Assembly: GCA_021774575.1 (NCBI GenBank)
Contig: JAJFIX010000006.1
Location: 62,001 to 126,000, forward strand
Reading direction: 5' to 3'
Length of the DNA: 64,000 nucleotides
DNA from: Alphaproteobacteria bacterium
GTDB taxonomy: Bacteria > Pseudomonadota > Alphaproteobacteria > UBA6615
Positions 13,183-53,523 of this stretch are shown in pieces. The translations under genes were made by a program, and so were the position numbers. A model generated the notes under the pieces. The model did no database searches, had not been told where the DNA came from, and saw nothing but the letters and a program-made list of their open reading frames with translations. Positions within the stretch are counted from its first letter, which is position 1, and the number at the start of each line of letters is the position of its first letter.

Positions 13183-15829
13183 GACAAAAGAAACCGCTGA
13201 AAACGGCAAGAAAAAGCCGCTGAAGTTGGGTCAACCCGGCCGTTTGGAGCTGAACAAGACCGTTGAATCCGGTCAGGTGAAGCAGAGTTTCAGCCACGGG
13301 AGATCGAAAACGGTTGCCGTCGAGGTGAAGCGCAAGCGCACCTTCAAAGCCGGCGATAGCGGCGCGATGAAAGAGGTCAGCAAGGGCGAAGCCGCGCCTG
13401 CTCCTGTTGAGCCCCCTGTCGTTGAAGCACCGCCCGAGCCGGTCAAAGAGACCGGGCGGGCACAACCAACCACCCCTCAAAGAACTTTGACCAAAGGTGA
13501 GCGAGAGGCTCGTGAGCGCGTTGTCGCCGAGGCCGCCCTTGCGCGCGCCAACGAACCTAGCCCGGCGGTACCAGAAACAAGTGCCGGTGAGGCACAGCCG
13601 GAAGAGCTGGCGGCAGAGGCTGGCCCAAGCGCGGAAGAACTCGGCCTGAGCGCAGAAGAACTTGAGCGCCGCCAAATTGAAGAGATCGAACGCAAGCGCC
13701 AGACCGACGAGGCCGAACGACTTGAAGCGGAAGAGAAAAAACGCAAATTAGCCGAAGCAGAAGTCGCAAGCGCGGCTGCAGCCGAGGCCGAGCGAAATCG
13801 ACCGGTGCCGGTTCAGGGAGAAGAACCTGCAGCCACTGAAGGACGGTCTCGCGGTAAACCGGGTGCTGCCAAAGTGGCGCCGGCCAAAAGCGAAAGATCA
13901 CGAAGCCGCGGCGGGCAAAACAAACGACGGGGCGGCAAGCTAACTATCAGCCAGGCGCTCAGCGACGAAAGTGGCGAAAAACGGCATTCCGTGGCGTCTC
14001 TTCGCCGCCGCCAGCAGCGTGAGAAGCAGAAGGCGGAAGGCCAATTCAGTGCCGATGCTGAGCGAAAGATCATTCGCGAAGCTGTTATTCCCGAGACCAT
14101 CGCTGTTGGCGAATTTGCCAACCGAATTGCCGAGCGAGCAGCCGACGTCATCCGGACCCTGATGAAAATGGGCATCATGGCCAATGTTAATCAAATCATT
14201 GACCAAGATACCGCCGAGCTTGTTGCCGAGGAGTTGGGTCATAAGATCAAGCGTATCGCCGCTTCCGATGTCGAAATTGGTCTTGGCGGTGATGTCGATG
14301 CCGATGAAGGCCTTCAAGAATCCCGTGCCGCGGTTGTCACCGTTATGGGGCATGTTGATCACGGCAAAACGTCCCTGTTGGACGCCTTGCGTCAGACCGA
14401 CGTGGTGGCCGGCGAGGCAGGCGGCATCACCCAGCATATTGGTGCGTACCAAGTACAGCTCAAAGATGGCGGCAGGATTACCTTTCTCGATACACCGGGC
14501 CATGAGGCATTTACCTCGATGCGCCAGCGTGGGGCAGAGGTCACAGATATCGTCATTTTGGTCGTTGCGGCCGATGATGGCGTCCGACCGCAGACGATTG
14601 AGGCGATAAATCACGCCAAAGCAGCAGGTGTGCCGTTGATCGTCGCTATCAATAAAATCGACAAAGAAGGCGCTGACCCAACCCGCGTTAAAACCGAACT
14701 TCTGAGCTACGAAATAGTTGCCGAGGATCTTGGCGGCGACACACAATGTATTGAAGTGTCAGCGACGCAAAAAACCGGCTTAGAATCGTTGGAAGAAGCC
14801 ATTCTTTTGCAGGCTGAAATTCTTGAGCTGCAGGCAAACCCCAACCGCCAAGCTTTTGGTGCCGTTGTCGAGGCTCAGCTCGAGCGAGGCCGGGGCCCAG
14901 TTGCTACCGTTTTGGTTCAGCGCGGCACACTGCGTATAGGTGACATATTTGTCGCCGGCGGCGAATGGGGCCGGGTTCGCGCTTTAATCGACGATCACGG
15001 CAAAAATGTCGAGGCAGCCGGGCCGTCGGTACCAATTGAAGTCTTGGGGCTAAATGGCACGCCGCTCGCCGGTCAGGATTTTGCCGTGGTCGATGACGAG
15101 GCCCGCGCCCGCGAAATCGTCGAATATCGTCAAGGGGTTGTCCGCGACAAACGCGCCGTAGCCAGTGCACGCGGTAGCCTAGAGCAAATGTTCGACCGTA
15201 TTGCCGCCGGTGAAGCCGCCGAAGTACCATTGGTTATCAAAGGCGACGTGCAGGGCTCGGTTGAGGCAATTATCGGTGCTTTTGATAAAATGGCGACCGA
15301 CGAGGTCAAGGTTCGAGTCCTCCATTCGGCGGTCGGTGGAATCACCGAATCCGACATATCCCTCGCCACAGCGTCGGCCGGAATTATCATTGGCTTCAAC
15401 GTCCGCGCCAATGCGCAGGCCCGCGACCAAGCCAAGCGCGACGGAACAGATATTCGATATTACTCGGTGATTTACGATGCCATCGACGATGTAAAAGCGT
15501 TGATGGAAGGTGAACTGGCACCGGACGTTCGCGAAAACCGTCTGGGATCGGCGGAAATTCGTGAGGTCTTTTCAGTATCCAAGCTTGGCAAAGTCGCCGG
15601 CTGTATGGTTATTGACGGTCTGGTTCGGCGTGGCGCCAAGGTACGCCTGCTGCGCGATAATATCGTCATCCATGAAGGCGATCTCGCCACTTTGCGCCGC
15701 TTCAAAGACGATGTCCGTGAGGTGCGTGATTCCTATGAGTGCGGCATGTCCTTCGAGCGTTATGATAATATCCGAATTGGCGATGTTATCGAATGCTACG
15801 AAGAAGAAGAAATTGCACGCAAGCTGTAG
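13175..15829 (+). CDS. infB: Translation initiation factor IF-2
   Basis: The 884-residue GTPase that places initiator tRNA on the 30S subunit. After an alphaproteobacteria-specific N-terminus ([19 protein letters not shown]) and a long Glu/Ala/Lys-rich region comes the G domain, with [13 protein letters not shown] (G1), DTPGHE (G3) and NKID (G4), then domains II-IV. ATG 13175 has GGTGGA upstream and overlaps the ylxR stop, so the frame open to 13106 is not used. Confidence 0.97.
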
Positions 15830-16292: not shown

Positions 16293-17255
16293 ATGGGGCG
16301 GCGGCGGCGAGGGGGCATTCCCATTCATGGGTGGTTGAACGTCGACAAACCGGTTGGCATGAGTTCGGCCGCTTGTGTTGCAGCGGTGCGCAAAGCAACA
16401 AACGCCAATAAAGTAGGTCATGCGGGAACACTCGACCCACTGGCGTCCGGCGTTTTACCCATTGCTTTCGGTGAGGCCACAAAAACCGTTTCTATTTTGC
16501 AAGATGGGCGCAAGCGATACCGTTTCACCGCACGATGGGGCGAACGGCGAGCCACCGACGATGCGGAGGGCGAAATCGTTGCGACATCTGATCACCGCCC
16601 GAACGTGGCGGCGATAAAATCGGTTTTGCCGGAATTTACCGGCAGGATTAGTCAAATCCCACCGGCCTATTCGGCGATTAAAGTCAATGGTGACAGGGCC
16701 TATGCGCTCGCCCGGAGCGGAGAAACCGTTACCCTCAACCCGCGTCAGGTCGATATTTACGAATTGCGCTATCTCGACGAGGTTGAACTTCCAGAGGCGG
16801 CTGATATAGCGGATTATGGTGTGTTTGAAGTGACTTCCGGCAAGGGCATGTATGTGCGGTCATTGGCTAGGGATTTGGCGCAAAAACTAGGGACCGAGGG
16901 ACATCTCGCGCGATTGGTACGCGAGGCCGTCGGTCCATTCGAATTGACGAGGGCGATTTCACTAGAAATTATCGAACAACTCGGCCATAGTGCCGCCGAT
17001 TTTGACGAAATTCTTCCGATTACGACCGCGCTGGCCGACATCCCGGCGCTGGCCCTATCGGCAGACGAGGCGTCCCGCCTCAGAAACGGGCAGGCAGTGC
17101 CTATCATGCGCCCCGCCGACCGCGACATTTTGGACGAAGTGGAAGAGGATGATCCGATTCTCGCCATTGAAGCCAACGGCAAACTTGAAAAGCCGGTTGC
17201 ATTGGTCAAGGCGCAAGGAATTCAGATACTGCCGGTTCGCGTTTTCAACATATAA
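16293..17255 (+). CDS. truB: tRNA pseudouridine(55) synthase
   Basis: A 320-residue TruB forming psi55 in the T-loop of tRNAs. The catalytic aspartate is D48 in [16 protein letters not shown], and [12 protein letters not shown] opens the domain. The C-terminal PUA-like region contains an acidic insert ([10 protein letters not shown]). Start ATG 16293 is followed by an Arg-rich stretch (MGRRRRGG). Confidence 0.96.
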
Positions 17256-22415: not shown

Positions 22416-23528
22416 TTACTGGTTTTGCACCGCCCCGAATTGCTGCGGCCCGAACTGGTTTTGCTGAGGCGCCCTAAGATCTCCCCCGAAGGCACGTTGT
22501 GGTCCAAATTGGCGACCAGCGCTGGTCCGCCCAATCGGCGCGGAAGCCCCTTGCGCAAAGGAGCTTGGAAAAGTTTGCCCGTCGGAAATCGTATCAAAAA
22601 ACAGCGGCGGCTTAACCGGTTGGCTCGGTACTACCGCCCCGCCGAAATAGTTTTGATCGAGACCGTCGCGAACATATTGAGGTACGCCGTTCGTTCCGGG
22701 AGCAAAGCCCGGTTGCCCATTCGTCGGAACCCCATTTATCTGACCGAATGCGCCCGGCGCAAATTGAAGTTGCCCAGCTGGCTGGCCGCCGGATGGATTT
22801 TGGACGAACCGGGCCGGGCCAGCCTGACTAACTCCGGGTTGGCTCTGACCGAATAGGCCCTGCGAACCGCCAAATTGTTGTTGTGGGGGCAGCTGTGGCT
22901 GGATTTGCGCCTGCCGGGGCAAACCTTGTTGCCCAAATTGTTGGCCGGTCTGCTGGGTGAATTGTTGCGGCGCAACTTGCGGGCGTTGAAAAAATTGCTG
23001 CGGCGTGAACTGTTGCTGCTGCTGCGTAATTCGCGGGCGTTGAAAAAACTGCTGTGGGGAAAACTGTTGTTGTTGCGAAATTTGCGGACGCTGGACAAAT
23101 TGCTGCTGCGTGAACTGTTGCTGCTGTTGCGTAATTTGCGGGCGTTGAAAAAACTGCTGTGGGGAAAACTGTTGTTGTTGCGAAATTTGCGGGCGTTGGA
23201 CAAATTGCTGCGGCGTGAACCGTTGCTGCTGCTGCGTAATTTGTGGGCGTTGAAAAAACTGCTGTGGGGCGAATTGTTGCTGTTGAGTAATTTGCGGGCG
23301 TTGGAAAAATCGCTGCTGGACAAATTGTGGCTGACTGAATTGTTGCGGGTTGGCTGGCGTCTGCACACCAAACCGTAATTGGCGCGCAAATGGCTGAATT
23401 TCGAATTGCGGCTGGCCAAATTGTTGTTGGCGAACTTGCGCCATTGCACTGCCCGTCGCCCCAATGAGCACCAATAAACTCGCTGCCGATACCAATCCGG
23501 CAACCACCACCTTGACGCGCACCATCAT
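22416..23528 (-). CDS. Secreted Gln/Phe-rich tandem-repeat protein
   Basis: A 370-residue protein of unknown function. ATG at 23528 is chosen because AAAGG lies just upstream and the next residues form a clear signal peptide (KVVVAGLVSAASLLVLIGAT, ending SAMAQ). The mature part is low-complexity: about seven 17-18 residue units with consensus QQF(F/V)QRPQI(T/S)QQQQF(T/S)P, then Gly/Gln-rich QQFGG stretches and a Pro-rich end with FGPQQF. There is no histidine or cysteine in the repeat core. It is predicted to be exported and disordered, and could be a matrix or surface protein. It shares FGPQQF and QQF motifs with the gene at 52.0-52.5 kb. Confidence 0.75.
   Translation of the reverse strand: MMVRVKVVVAGLVSAASLLVLIGATGSAMAQVRQQQFGQPQFEIQPFARQLRFGVQTPANPQQFSQPQFVQQRFFQRPQITQQQQFAPQQFFQRPQITQQQQRFTPQQFVQRPQISQQQQFSPQQFFQRPQITQQQQQFTQQQFVQRPQISQQQQFSPQQFFQRPRITQQQQQFTPQQFFQRPQVAPQQFTQQTGQQFGQQGLPRQAQIQPQLPPQQQFGGSQGLFGQSQPGVSQAGPARFVQNPSGGQPAGQLQFAPGAFGQINGVPTNGQPGFAPGTNGVPQYVRDGLDQNYFGGAVVPSQPVKPPLFFDTISDGQTFPSSFAQGASAPIGRTSAGRQFGPQRAFGGDLRAPQQNQFGPQQFGAVQNQ
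22979..23310 (-). repeat. 105-bp higher-order repeats within the Q-rich gene
   Basis: The coding repeats alternate 51 and 54 bp, giving a 105-bp period: copies begin at 23033, 23138 and 23243 and are nearly identical, with a half copy at 22979. The near identity at third codon positions indicates recent expansion or gene-conversion-like homogenisation. Confidence 0.88.
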
Positions 23529-23840
23529 GCGTAGCCTTTCATATTTAGTCCAGTATTTGCCGCCGAATCCAGTTCCGCACACCACACTTGGCTATCCACG
23601 CCAATGTCTCTGCGAAAAACTCCAGGTTTCCAGATTAAGCATCAAGCGCGCCCCCATTAGTGCGCTCAGGACGGTTTTTGCCATTCGTCTGGCAAATAAA
23701 CGCCGCCAACTGAAGCATATCTTGGCTGGCAACGAATGTCGCTGTGGATAAAATCCGTGCGGGTAAGCTGGGCGGGTACACTGGAATGCTGAAGAAATAT
23801 GCCTGGCAAAGTATGTCTGCCTAAAAACAGCGCGACCGTG
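23529..23840. promoter_or_regulatory. Intergenic region with a perfect DnaA box
   Basis: About 310 bp without a convincing gene, upstream of the Q-rich gene. It contains TGTGGATAA (23743-23751), the reverse complement of the DnaA box TTATCCACA, inside CTGTGGATAAAAT, a 13-mer found again at 53353. No promoter is clear. The far end borders the small gene at 23841. Confidence 0.5.
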
Positions 23841-50532: not shown

Positions 50533-50629
50533 TTCTGGTCCTTCCGCCGGCAGGTCGGTCTTTGCGCATAGCTATGGTAGGATTACCCAGCATGACAGTG
50601 CACAGGCCCCTCCAGGGAAAGGATGTAAT

Positions 50630-51199
50630 ATGTTCAATTTACCGCGTGCCCACAGCATGCACACCCATGACCCACGTCCCCATGGCCAATTTAGAAAGCT
50701 GACGAGGGCGAATGTTTTCGGCTCGACGACGCTATTGGTCGCCCTCCTTTCGGCGGCCTTTCAACCTGCAAAGGCTGCTGAAATAGCTCAAATTATTATT
50801 GGGCCGGGATCGGTAGGTATTTCGCAGGGCTTTTTGCTACCGAACGCACAAAACCTACCGCCCTTCGCCGCATTTCGGGCGGATATTGCAACCGCTGGCC
50901 CGTCAACAAGCTCTGGTTTGTTGTTTTATCAAACTCCGGGCTTAACCTGGTCGTGCCAAGGCACGTCGTGCGGCGCGCAGGGCCGATTTGAGCGGTTTAC
51001 CCTTGAGACTTGCATTGCCTTGGCGGCGAAGGTCGGGCCTATTTTGACCCTCAGCGCGGCCGGTCAGCACGCCGCTGATAGCGATATTAAGAGCTGCAAC
51101 GAAATAGCTTCCGGCGGGGCGGGGCAGCAAAACGGTACGATTTCAGCGCCAGGGTCAAATTCGCAGCCAACAATACGAATTGCCCCACCCGGCCAGTAA
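50630..51199 (+). CDS. Secreted Cys-containing protein, CC_3452-like
   Basis: A 189-residue protein. Its N-terminal 50 residues are His-containing (HSMHTHDPRPHG), then a hydrophobic signal segment (FGSTTLLVALLSAAFQPAKA) ending near AKAAE. The C-terminal half has W-x-C-x-G-x-x-C (LTWSCQGTSCG), a later C-IALAAKVGPI and a terminal CN. This pattern resembles the small CC_3452 family of alphaproteobacteria, for which no function is known to me. The tail is Gly/Gln/Ser-rich. Confidence 0.6.
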   Translation: MFNLPRAHSMHTHDPRPHGQFRKLTRANVFGSTTLLVALLSAAFQPAKAAEIAQIIIGPGSVGISQGFLLPNAQNLPPFAAFRADIATAGPSTSSGLLFYQTPGLTWSCQGTSCGAQGRFERFTLETCIALAAKVGPILTLSAAGQHAADSDIKSCNEIASGGAGQQNGTISAPGSNSQPTIRIAPPGQ

Positions 51200-51306
51200 A
51201 ATATTTGGTGGCCGCGGTGGGACAGATAGTCGTCGCTATCGCACGCAAATTCGTGGAATTGTGCCAAATGCGGGACACAAGTCATCGATGAGCGTAGAGC
51301 TCGCGC

Positions 51307-51615
51307 CTACATGTGCCGGTGGGAAAATTCGCTAATCCAATGCTCAACCCGCCGGTGAGTATGGAGGGCCGGACTGGGTCGCACATGTATTCGTAACACT
51401 TGATAGGCTGGATTGTGGGAATGGGCGCGCGTGAACGGTAAATGGCGATGCGGCCCAACATTCGGAAAATGCTGATGGCGCACCGGGGCATCATGAAAAT
51501 ACGAATGGCCAGCCGAGCCATAATAGTCACCCGCAACAGCTGTTGAAGGTGCCGAAACCATTGACGCCAAGCCCACAAGCATAGCAGCCGCAATCATCCT
51601 ATCTATTTTCAACAT
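51307..51615 (-). CDS. His-rich secreted protein (PHxH/HxH motifs)
   Basis: A 102-residue protein with a signal peptide (MIAAAMLVGLASMVSAPSTA, ending AVAG). The mature part has 14 histidines in about 74 residues, in GPHRHLP, RAHSHNP, ALHTHRR and EFSHRHM. This is what a metal-binding periplasmic or extracellular protein would look like. No named family is recognised. The upstream block (AGGTACCCTGGTA before ATG) resembles that of the gene at 52.5 kb. Confidence 0.6.
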   Translation of the reverse strand: MLKIDRMIAAAMLVGLASMVSAPSTAVAGDYYGSAGHSYFHDAPVRHQHFPNVGPHRHLPFTRAHSHNPAYQVLRIHVRPSPALHTHRRVEHWISEFSHRHM

Positions 51616-52034
51616 TACCAGGGTACCTCACTAAAAAAACGAACCAAAATGCGGTGGATCATCAAAATGATCGCCAATCTAGTAATCCAAACCGCGCCAG
51701 AGATTAGACAATATCGATAACATTCTATTCACGCCACTAATAAAGTAAAACTAGGTTTTGCTTACTTGATCTAAATATGTTGTGGCGGCATGAAACTCTA
51801 TACTTCGTATCCGGAAATTTGACTCAGTGTAATGCTCAAAAATGGAAAACTGGACTCAATCAGGTCTTTCTGACGACAGACTCATATTTGTGACCCTTTC
51901 TACGGGCCTGACATAAAAAGAAAACCCCGGATCGAATTTCAATCCGGGGTAAGTCTTGCCAAATTTATCCGACGTCAAAATCGTCTCTGTGGAAACCCCT
52001 GATTGAGTCCACCACCAAAAACGCCTTGGCCGAA
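51616..52034. other. Intergenic segment between two secreted genes
   Basis: No gene is seen. It contains GATCAT-CAAA-ATGATC (51658-51673), an inverted repeat 43 bp before the 51615 start, and the terminator below at 51915-51949. Confidence 0.5.
51915..51949 (-). terminator. Leftward terminator after the 52.0-kb gene
   Basis: On the minus strand a perfect 8-bp stem CCCCGGAT/ATCCGGGG is followed by a T-rich run (AAAAGAAAA on plus). It ends the leftward transcript of the gene at 52035-52463. Confidence 0.85.
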
Positions 52035-52463
52035 TTACTGCCGCGCGTGCATATGTGGTGCCATTTGGCCAAATTGTTGACTGAAATGCGTGTGGGGTGC
52101 GTTGACGCCCAACCGAGGATCCTCATGTGAATGCGGTTGGGTCGACCCAAATTGTTGACCGCCGAACTGTTGGCCGCCGAACTGTTGACCATTGAATTGC
52201 TGCGCCCCGAACTGACGGCTGACAAATTGTTGGGGTCCGAAATCTGCGCGATCATTGACCCGACGGCCAAAAACAACGCCGTCCCGAGCTGGTCCCGGCC
52301 CAATACCTGTTGCTGTATGAAGCGCCGCATATCCGGCGCCCAAAATCAAAGCCAGAGTAATCGGCTCGATCGCCGTTGCCGGCCTAGACGTGCCGCCAAT
52401 TAACCCGACCGTGGCGAACGTCCCAATAAGTAATGCAAATACAGCCTTCCTGGTTCTCCTCAT
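52035..52463 (-). CDS. Secreted Gln/Gly-rich protein with PHxH motifs
   Basis: A 142-residue protein from ATG 52463 (AAAGG upstream). A signal peptide (AVFALLIGTFATVGLIGG, ending RPATA) is followed by a hydrophobic stretch (ITLALILGAGYAALHTATG). The mature region has FGPQQFVSRQFGAQQF and repeated GQQFG, then three P-H-x-H units (PHSHEDP, PHTHFS, PHMHARQ). It shares QQF repeats with the gene at 22.4 kb and PHxH with 51307. Unknown function; metal binding is inferred. Confidence 0.6.
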   Translation of the reverse strand: MRRTRKAVFALLIGTFATVGLIGGTSRPATAIEPITLALILGAGYAALHTATGIGPGPARDGVVFGRRVNDRADFGPQQFVSRQFGAQQFNGQQFGGQQFGGQQFGSTQPHSHEDPRLGVNAPHTHFSQQFGQMAPHMHARQ

Positions 52464-52563
52464 GACCAAGCTACCTTTCCTAGTGCCCGATAAAGGCAAA
52501 TTCATCGATTTATAGAACGGCGAATTCTTGTGGTTAAGTAGGCTAAGTGCTGGGTGTGTTTAC

Positions 52564-53244
52564 TTATCTTAAATTGAGCAATGTTGAAGTCGTTCCCGGA
52601 ACAACATAGGGCTGCCCGTAACGACCCATGCATGTTTTGTAGTGAAGCAATCCGATTTGCCCGCTCCACGTCTGCGTTTGCTGCAGGTTCCACTGACAAA
52701 CTTGAACGGTCGTCGGAACGTAAACAGGCTGCGGTACGGGGATCACGACCGGCGCATGCTGATGCGGCGGCACAACTTGAAGCGATGGCTGCGGATGCAG
52801 TTGCTGCACTGGTTCGCGATATGTTGGTTCGCGATAGACTGGCGGCTCCCGCCGTGGCGGCTCGGCATATGATTGCACGGGCGGTTGCGGCGTGTAACCC
52901 TCCGGCCGATTTTGCTGCTGCGGCGCAGGATATTCATTTGTTTGGGCATGGCGCTGTTGACGTGTGCCGGGATGCCCCGAATGGGCCGGGTGTGTAGACG
53001 GCACATTGGAGCCAAAATAATTTGGCGTGCTGCCGTATCGCGTAATCTGTCCGGTCTGCGCCGGTTGATCCTCATAGCCGCCGCCATAGCGGCCACCGTT
53101 GGAGCCGGAGGCAAATATCAGATAGAAAAACGCCGTGAGACCAAACAGGGCCGCCGGCGTTGCTTGTGCGGGTCGCGGAACCGATACTGTGCCTAGGGAT
53201 ACGGCCAGTAAAAGCGCTGCAAACACCTTTATAGTGCGTTTCAT
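52564..53244 (-). CDS. Secreted Pro/Gln-rich protein with PHxH motif
   Basis: A 226-residue protein with a signal peptide (KVFAALLLAVSLGTVSV, ending RPAQA) and a following hydrophobic segment (AALFGLTAFFYLIFASGS). The middle is a Pro/Gln/Tyr/Arg-rich disordered part with two YREPTYREPV-type units. PPHQHAP lies near residue 165. Two cysteines (VCQWNLQQTQTWSG and KTCMGRYG) are near the end. GAGGA precedes the start. Same direction as 52035 and 51307, so probably the same transcript or locus. No known function. Confidence 0.6.
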   Translation of the reverse strand: MKRTIKVFAALLLAVSLGTVSVPRPAQATPAALFGLTAFFYLIFASGSNGGRYGGGYEDQPAQTGQITRYGSTPNYFGSNVPSTHPAHSGHPGTRQQRHAQTNEYPAPQQQNRPEGYTPQPPVQSYAEPPRREPPVYREPTYREPVQQLHPQPSLQVVPPHQHAPVVIPVPQPVYVPTTVQVCQWNLQQTQTWSGQIGLLHYKTCMGRYGQPYVVPGTTSTLLNLR

Positions 53245-53523
53245 CAGGGGTCCTCGCCTTACTACATGTAGGCTTCGCTTTTCTGCTTATCCGGGCGGCT
53301 CGATTCGTGCCAAGGGCCCCGATCACCCGAGAGCAACAAATCGCAAAAATACCTGTGGATAAAATGACCCGCATGGTCGCCCATTCCAAATTTGGGCCAA
53401 ATTTATGCCAAATTGGCGTTAGGGCTTGTAAGCTTTGGGGCAAGCCGTCACTTGTCATTTATCGCAATCGGCGACACCACAATTTATTTGTTCCGGTGAC
53501 GAAGCCGGACTTAGGTTGAAACC
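53245..53523. promoter_or_regulatory. Divergent region with DnaA box and phased CCAAATT array
   Basis: A 279-bp gap between the secreted-protein gene and PBP1A. It contains TGTGGATAA (53354-53362), a perfect DnaA box, and three CCAAATT copies at 53386, 53397 and 53408, exactly 11 bp apart. The array is 110 bp before the PBP1A start. Likely regulatory; the factors are unknown. Confidence 0.45.

Follow-up and report, generated by a model that had tools for sequence, protein, structure and literature searches.

The window analysed here comprises 64,000 nucleotides and is part of contig C42 of a 3.5 Mb genome (G000, the host genome). Three open reading frames follow one another on its minus strand: p1 (51307-51615, 102 aa), p2 (52035-52505, 156 aa) and p3 (52564-53244, 226 aa). 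Each has a ribosome-binding site and begins with a hydrophobic export-type N-terminal segment. Together with a plus-strand gene at 50630-51199, which is convergent with p1, they lie in a segment of 2,991 bp (50533-53523) between two genes that we take to be gyrB and a PBP1A gene; a further neighbour is presumably a ZapE-like gene.

Coding evidence, start sites and transcription

Codon statistics are nearly uninformative at such compositions. The coding frames of p1-p3 were barely distinguishable from the other frames, and the codon score of p3 was slightly exceeded by one antisense frame. Taken with the lack of homologues described below, these weak scores speak for the view that the ORFs are spurious and the stretch is noncoding. 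The frequency of such ORFs by chance provides a stronger test. Long genes totalling 1.64 Mb were screened in their five wrong frames for ORFs that are 100 aa or longer and have an ATG, a Shine-Dalgarno (SD) sequence and a signal-peptide pattern; this filter retained one shadow ORF, which corresponds to 0.0018 per 3 kb. Both p1 and p3 pass this filter within 2 kb. p2 has the SD sequence and shows the signal peptide at a looser threshold only; the signal-peptide calls come from a crude rule-based predictor, used in its strict form for p1 and p3 and in its loose form for p2. The clustering of SD and signal-peptide-like starts, and a terminator-like hairpin positioned 3' of p2, argue against a noncoding stretch, which we regard as highly improbable. 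All three ORFs are taken as real genes, p1 and p3 being the strongest on the shadow-ORF test.

p1 (SD sequence AGGT) is predicted to be a His-rich exported protein with a signal peptide of approximately residues 1-28 and a single N-terminal hydrophobic stretch. The single-sequence structure model of p1 has a mean pLDDT of 60 and is mostly of low confidence, with an unstructured middle and a predicted C-terminal helix at residues 83-100.

The p2 ORF extends to 52505. The internal ATG at 52463 is most likely the start, because an SD-like AGGTA block and an export-type segment (MRRTRKAVFALLIG...) both begin there; it is also the start indicated by the leader block of the initial annotation itself. 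The resulting protein of 142 aa (52035-52463) would comprise an export-type N-terminus, a tract of QQFG repeats (with 15-bp DNA repeats at 52153-52190) and a C-terminal PHSH-9-PHTH-9-PHMH array. p3 consists of an export-type N-terminus, a Pro/Gln-rich linker and a predicted C-terminal three-strand beta unit with two cysteines, one in each of the first two predicted strands. Its single-sequence model has a mean pLDDT of 58, with values of about 75 for the first two strands of the C-terminal unit, and an unstructured middle.

Both p2 and p3 contain a second hydrophobic segment directly after the first (approximately residues 28-52 of p2 and 26-48 of p3), so that the term secreted is less certain for these two proteins than for p1. 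They could be anchored as membrane hairpins with two spans and cytosolic low-complexity tails, as the second segments themselves, several arginines past the second segment of p2 (R60, R67, R68, R72) and a helix at residues 30-45 in the p3 model would suggest. In both proteins, however, a signal-peptidase-type RPAxA stretch lies right after the first segment and before the second, and the cysteines in the first two predicted strands of p3 would suit an oxidising periplasm. We consider an anchored topology unlikely, though clearly less so than a noncoding stretch. Export across the inner membrane via Sec-type N-termini is proposed for p1 and, less surely, for p2 and p3; the three would then be largely disordered proteins that function within the envelope or outside it.

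The leaders of p1 (AGGTACCCTGGTA, 51616-51628, minus strand) and of the internal p2 start (AGGTAGCTTGGTC, 52464-52476, minus strand) are identical at 10 of 13 positions. Such a leader block common to two of the genes had been pointed out before. In 2.56 Mb of the host genome, AGGTANCYTGGTNATG was found at just two places, before p1 and before p2, and a comparison with 795 other leaders gave no equally good match to either of the two. An agreement of 10/13 was reached by 0.075% of random SD-type leader pairs (P about 7.5e-4), a value to be read with the comparison having been picked post hoc and part of the match being the SD sequence itself. The likeness is a hint at common origin or regulation.

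Between p2 and p1 a hairpin resembling an intrinsic terminator (51924-51950, minus strand) combines a 12-pair stem with a T-rich tail. Given its position after p2, p3 and p2 probably share one transcript that would end at this hairpin (51950-51924), and p1 would form a separate transcription unit. The hairpin is flanked by a 20-bp inverted repeat (90% identity) with arms at 51851-51870 and 51992-52011, 121 bp apart, of which no other copies were found in 2.56 Mb of the host genome. The 215 nt 5' of p1 showed no structured leader (RNA folding z = 0), an Rfam search across the region gave no match, and a promoter scan returned fewer matches than in shuffled sequences.

Genomic position and searches for homologues

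In the genome collection used, the order of the host is represented by a single family with 24 genomes. In all 20 family genomes that are readable at this site, gyrB is followed on the same strand by the adjacent PBP1A gene; the gap is 3-164 bp in genomes with a callable start, and in the others alignment places the two genes equally close together, compared with 2,991 bp in the host. Because the two genes are contiguous in the family, the island appears to have arisen within the host lineage, by insertion or by gene birth. Its edges carry no flanking direct repeat, it is not repeated in 2.56 Mb of the host genome, and its base composition is not strongly atypical except for an AT-rich gap before p1. 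In some distant alphaproteobacteria the same joint holds other, unrelated ORFs (L006, L011, L050).

No credible homologue of p1-p3 was found in 142 relatives or plasmids, none of p1 and p3 in the 24 genomes of the order, and none of p1 among viral contigs. Pfam and NCBIfam gave no match to the three proteins, PHROGs gave none that was significant, and p3 had no useful match among PDB sequences. One p3 match in the genome G002 (E=9.5e-4) was rejected as spurious: it covers only the low-complexity middle (residues 85-170) and is on the plus strand, with longer gene-like ORFs on the opposite strand there (L083). Three distant genomes gave weak, partial matches to p2, two of which run across stop codons. 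As p1-p3 are thus orphan genes, the initial statement that no described system has this set holds. Like other lineage-restricted bacterial genes they are short, of low complexity, without detectable homologues and located at a synteny break; they are set apart from a typical short orphan ORF by more specific features, namely the export signals and, in p2, the regular PHxH array.

The three proteins are not detectably homologous to one another either, as no significant mutual alignment was obtained. The common layout of signal peptide, RPAxA and hydrophobic segment in p2 and p3 is suggestive of paralogy, but alignment scores do not support it: the p2-p3 N-terminal alignment ranks only 41st-44th among about 937 export-type N-termini.

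The convergent gene at 50630-51199 encodes a predicted secreted protein with four cysteines. It scores 35.6 bits against profile NF047636 (positions 38-92 of 92) and is named CC_3452-like, not a member, because the curated cut-off is 40 bits. p1-p3 are not homologous to the CC_3452 family. The gene had been noted for its His-rich N-terminus. The histidines (RAHSMHTHDPRPHG) are present, but they precede the hydrophobic core (about residues 26-50) within a long signal-peptide n-region; they would thus belong to the n-region or the cytosolic side and are not expected in the mature protein. In Caulobacter, low iron and a fur mutation each raise CC_3452 about 2.5-fold (PMC3751524); this link to Fur was measured in Caulobacter only. 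The host genome encodes a second CC_3452-family protein diverged from the first (L201:1198-2283; G000:C16:186915-187262), which has 361 aa, passes the cut-off with 49.3 bits and carries a C-terminal repeat (LTVTGKGLSGAPVFPSGFVPGTIRT). In the other genomes of the host's bacterial family the NF047636 profile found no member.

Histidine motifs in p1-p3 and other exported proteins

The initial annotation described p1-p3 as a cluster of three leftward signal-peptide genes with PHxH or HxH units. The ORFs and all quoted motifs exist; what did not stand is the even distribution of PHxH. p2 contains three units (PHSH, PHTH, PHMH), whereas p1 (PHRH) and p3 (PHQH) contain one each and hence no array. 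We shuffled the mature sequence of each protein 20,000 times. For p2, three PHxH against 0.03 expected were reached in 0 of 20,000 shuffles. The single PHxH of p3 (0.04 expected, P=0.04) is marginal and that of p1 (0.24 expected, P=0.22) is not significant. The PHQH of p3 is also its sole HxH and is situated in the linker predicted to be disordered.

Proteome counts were based on 2,546 predicted genes in 2.56 of 3.50 Mb (73% of the genome), with p1 tallied apart since an overlapping ORF had displaced it from the gene list. There were 35 PHxH and 523 HxH in 793,000 residues, and p2 was the only predicted gene with at least two PHxH.

The three units of p2 (52047-52136, minus strand) follow a 13-residue period, PHSH-EDPRLGVNA-PHTH-FSQQFGQMA-PHMH, with two nine-residue linkers. 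A DNA pattern for this layout, PHxH-N27-PHxH, was searched in 385 alphaproteobacterial genomes, matches being counted as DNA. Scattered matches occurred in 49 of the 385 genomes, and two overlapping matches only at p2, both exact (G000:C42:114047-114097 and 114086-114136). A recurrence of this layout across alphaproteobacteria was thus not borne out: among the 385 genomes no conserved PHxH-9-PHxH layout was seen.

The mature part of p1 contains 14 histidines in 73 aa, i.e., 19% His compared with 2.1% in the proteome. Its five HxH units (HQH, HRH, HSH, HTH, HRH) exceed the 2.46 expected from the His content with P=0.06, and we therefore call p1 His-rich rather than HxH-patterned. HH and HxxH are absent (0 each, compared with about 2.4-2.5 expected each). 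Neither p1 nor p2 contains cysteine.

Several other exported proteins of the host genome have unusual compositions. At least six ORFs have a conserved signal peptide (MSLSIKKISGAVAPA..SLALIFATSGVLLVT..DAFA) and very different mature parts, some with Cys/His-containing tails (G000:C36:14422-14544, 15624-15746, 16823-16939; C42:281977-282093, 282972-283082; C43:160839-160952); this set was found in no other genome of the family. An exported protein of 348 aa (L123:10984-12030, contig C2 of G000) carries HDH units (GHDHFDPLLDGFI.HDH..GD..HDH.R.IES) between Pro-rich linkers. With nine HxH, the highest number of any exported protein found, and no Pfam match, it may be a better candidate for metal binding than p1-p3. 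Next to each other on contig C25 of G000, two small exported proteins (L165:16369-16683 and 16735-17091) have His/Cys-rich C-termini (HPYFHCHHGSRSQ; NNFELHCH) and likewise no Pfam match. The host genome thus has further sets of orphan exported proteins, among them the one with the common signal peptide, and in their light the p1-p3 cluster is less exceptional, being one of several lineage-specific sets.

Possible roles of the island

That p1-p3 form a genuine island of orphan exported proteins is in our view very probable; what the proteins do is a matter of much lower confidence. For p1 and the tail of p2, the likeliest biochemical role would be to bind Zn, Cu or Ni with low specificity via the HxH/PHxH units; such binding could serve buffering or cross-linking of an envelope matrix. 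The His composition of p1, the regular array of p2 and the iron- and Fur-responsive Caulobacter relative of the neighbouring gene are points for metal binding. Points against are the lack of Cys ligands in p1 and p2 and the position of the single HxH of p3 in a linker. No metal-homeostasis gene, transporter or metalloregulator adjoins the island, whose neighbours are gyrB, the PBP1A gene and the ZapE-like gene; for this reason, and because of the lack of homologues, a metal role remains inferential.

The same proteins could be low-complexity structural components of a surface or envelope matrix, in which the histidines are part of a sticky disordered composition and have no metal function. The QQFG repeat tract of p2, the Pro/Gln-rich linker of p3 and the largely low-confidence models of p1 and p3 are in line with this. 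An exported protein of 389 aa in the same window (22416-23585, minus strand) consists of QQQQF/QRPQITQQQQF repeats encoded by a 105-bp DNA tandem array; it has no Pfam match and no His at all, so that Gln/Phe repeat proteins do occur in the window without metal motifs. The three PHxH units of p2 are spaced at exactly 13 residues, and p1 lacks HH and HxxH, with about 2.5 of each expected; both points argue against a matter of mere composition and suggest that the HxH spacing is more than that. We regard it as rather unlikely that the proteins form a matrix without metal function, and as a little less likely still that p1 and p2 were selected for metal binding. The features of p1 and p2 plausibly fit weak metal binding or a matrix, the two roles suggested in the initial annotation, and a matrix role is as compatible with them as metal binding. 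Our overall reading, held tentatively, is that of a lineage-specific island of small, fast-evolving exported proteins in which p1 and the p2 tail would be plausible weak, low-specificity metal ligands. A more elaborate version, in which the island would be a lineage-specific envelope metal-handling module acquired with the CC_3452-like protein, with p1 as diffusible chelator, p2 as matrix or anchored PHxH-array protein and p3 as anchored partner with a disulfide unit, seems quite doubtful.

The His-rich proteins of Helicobacter are cytosolic and have runs of adjacent histidines. p1 differs from them by its export signal and by having no HH and only HxH. Two His-rich proteins of gastric Helicobacter are examples of small bacterial His-rich metal-binding proteins (PMC4671568); the likeness lies in small size, richness in His and restriction to a lineage.

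If the metal role is true, the island would provide a compact and directly testable new set for metal buffering in the envelope, from one bacterial lineage. If it is false, the locus still shows how orphan sets of exported proteins appear at chromosomal joints that are otherwise conserved, here in an alphaproteobacterial order that has been sampled sparsely.
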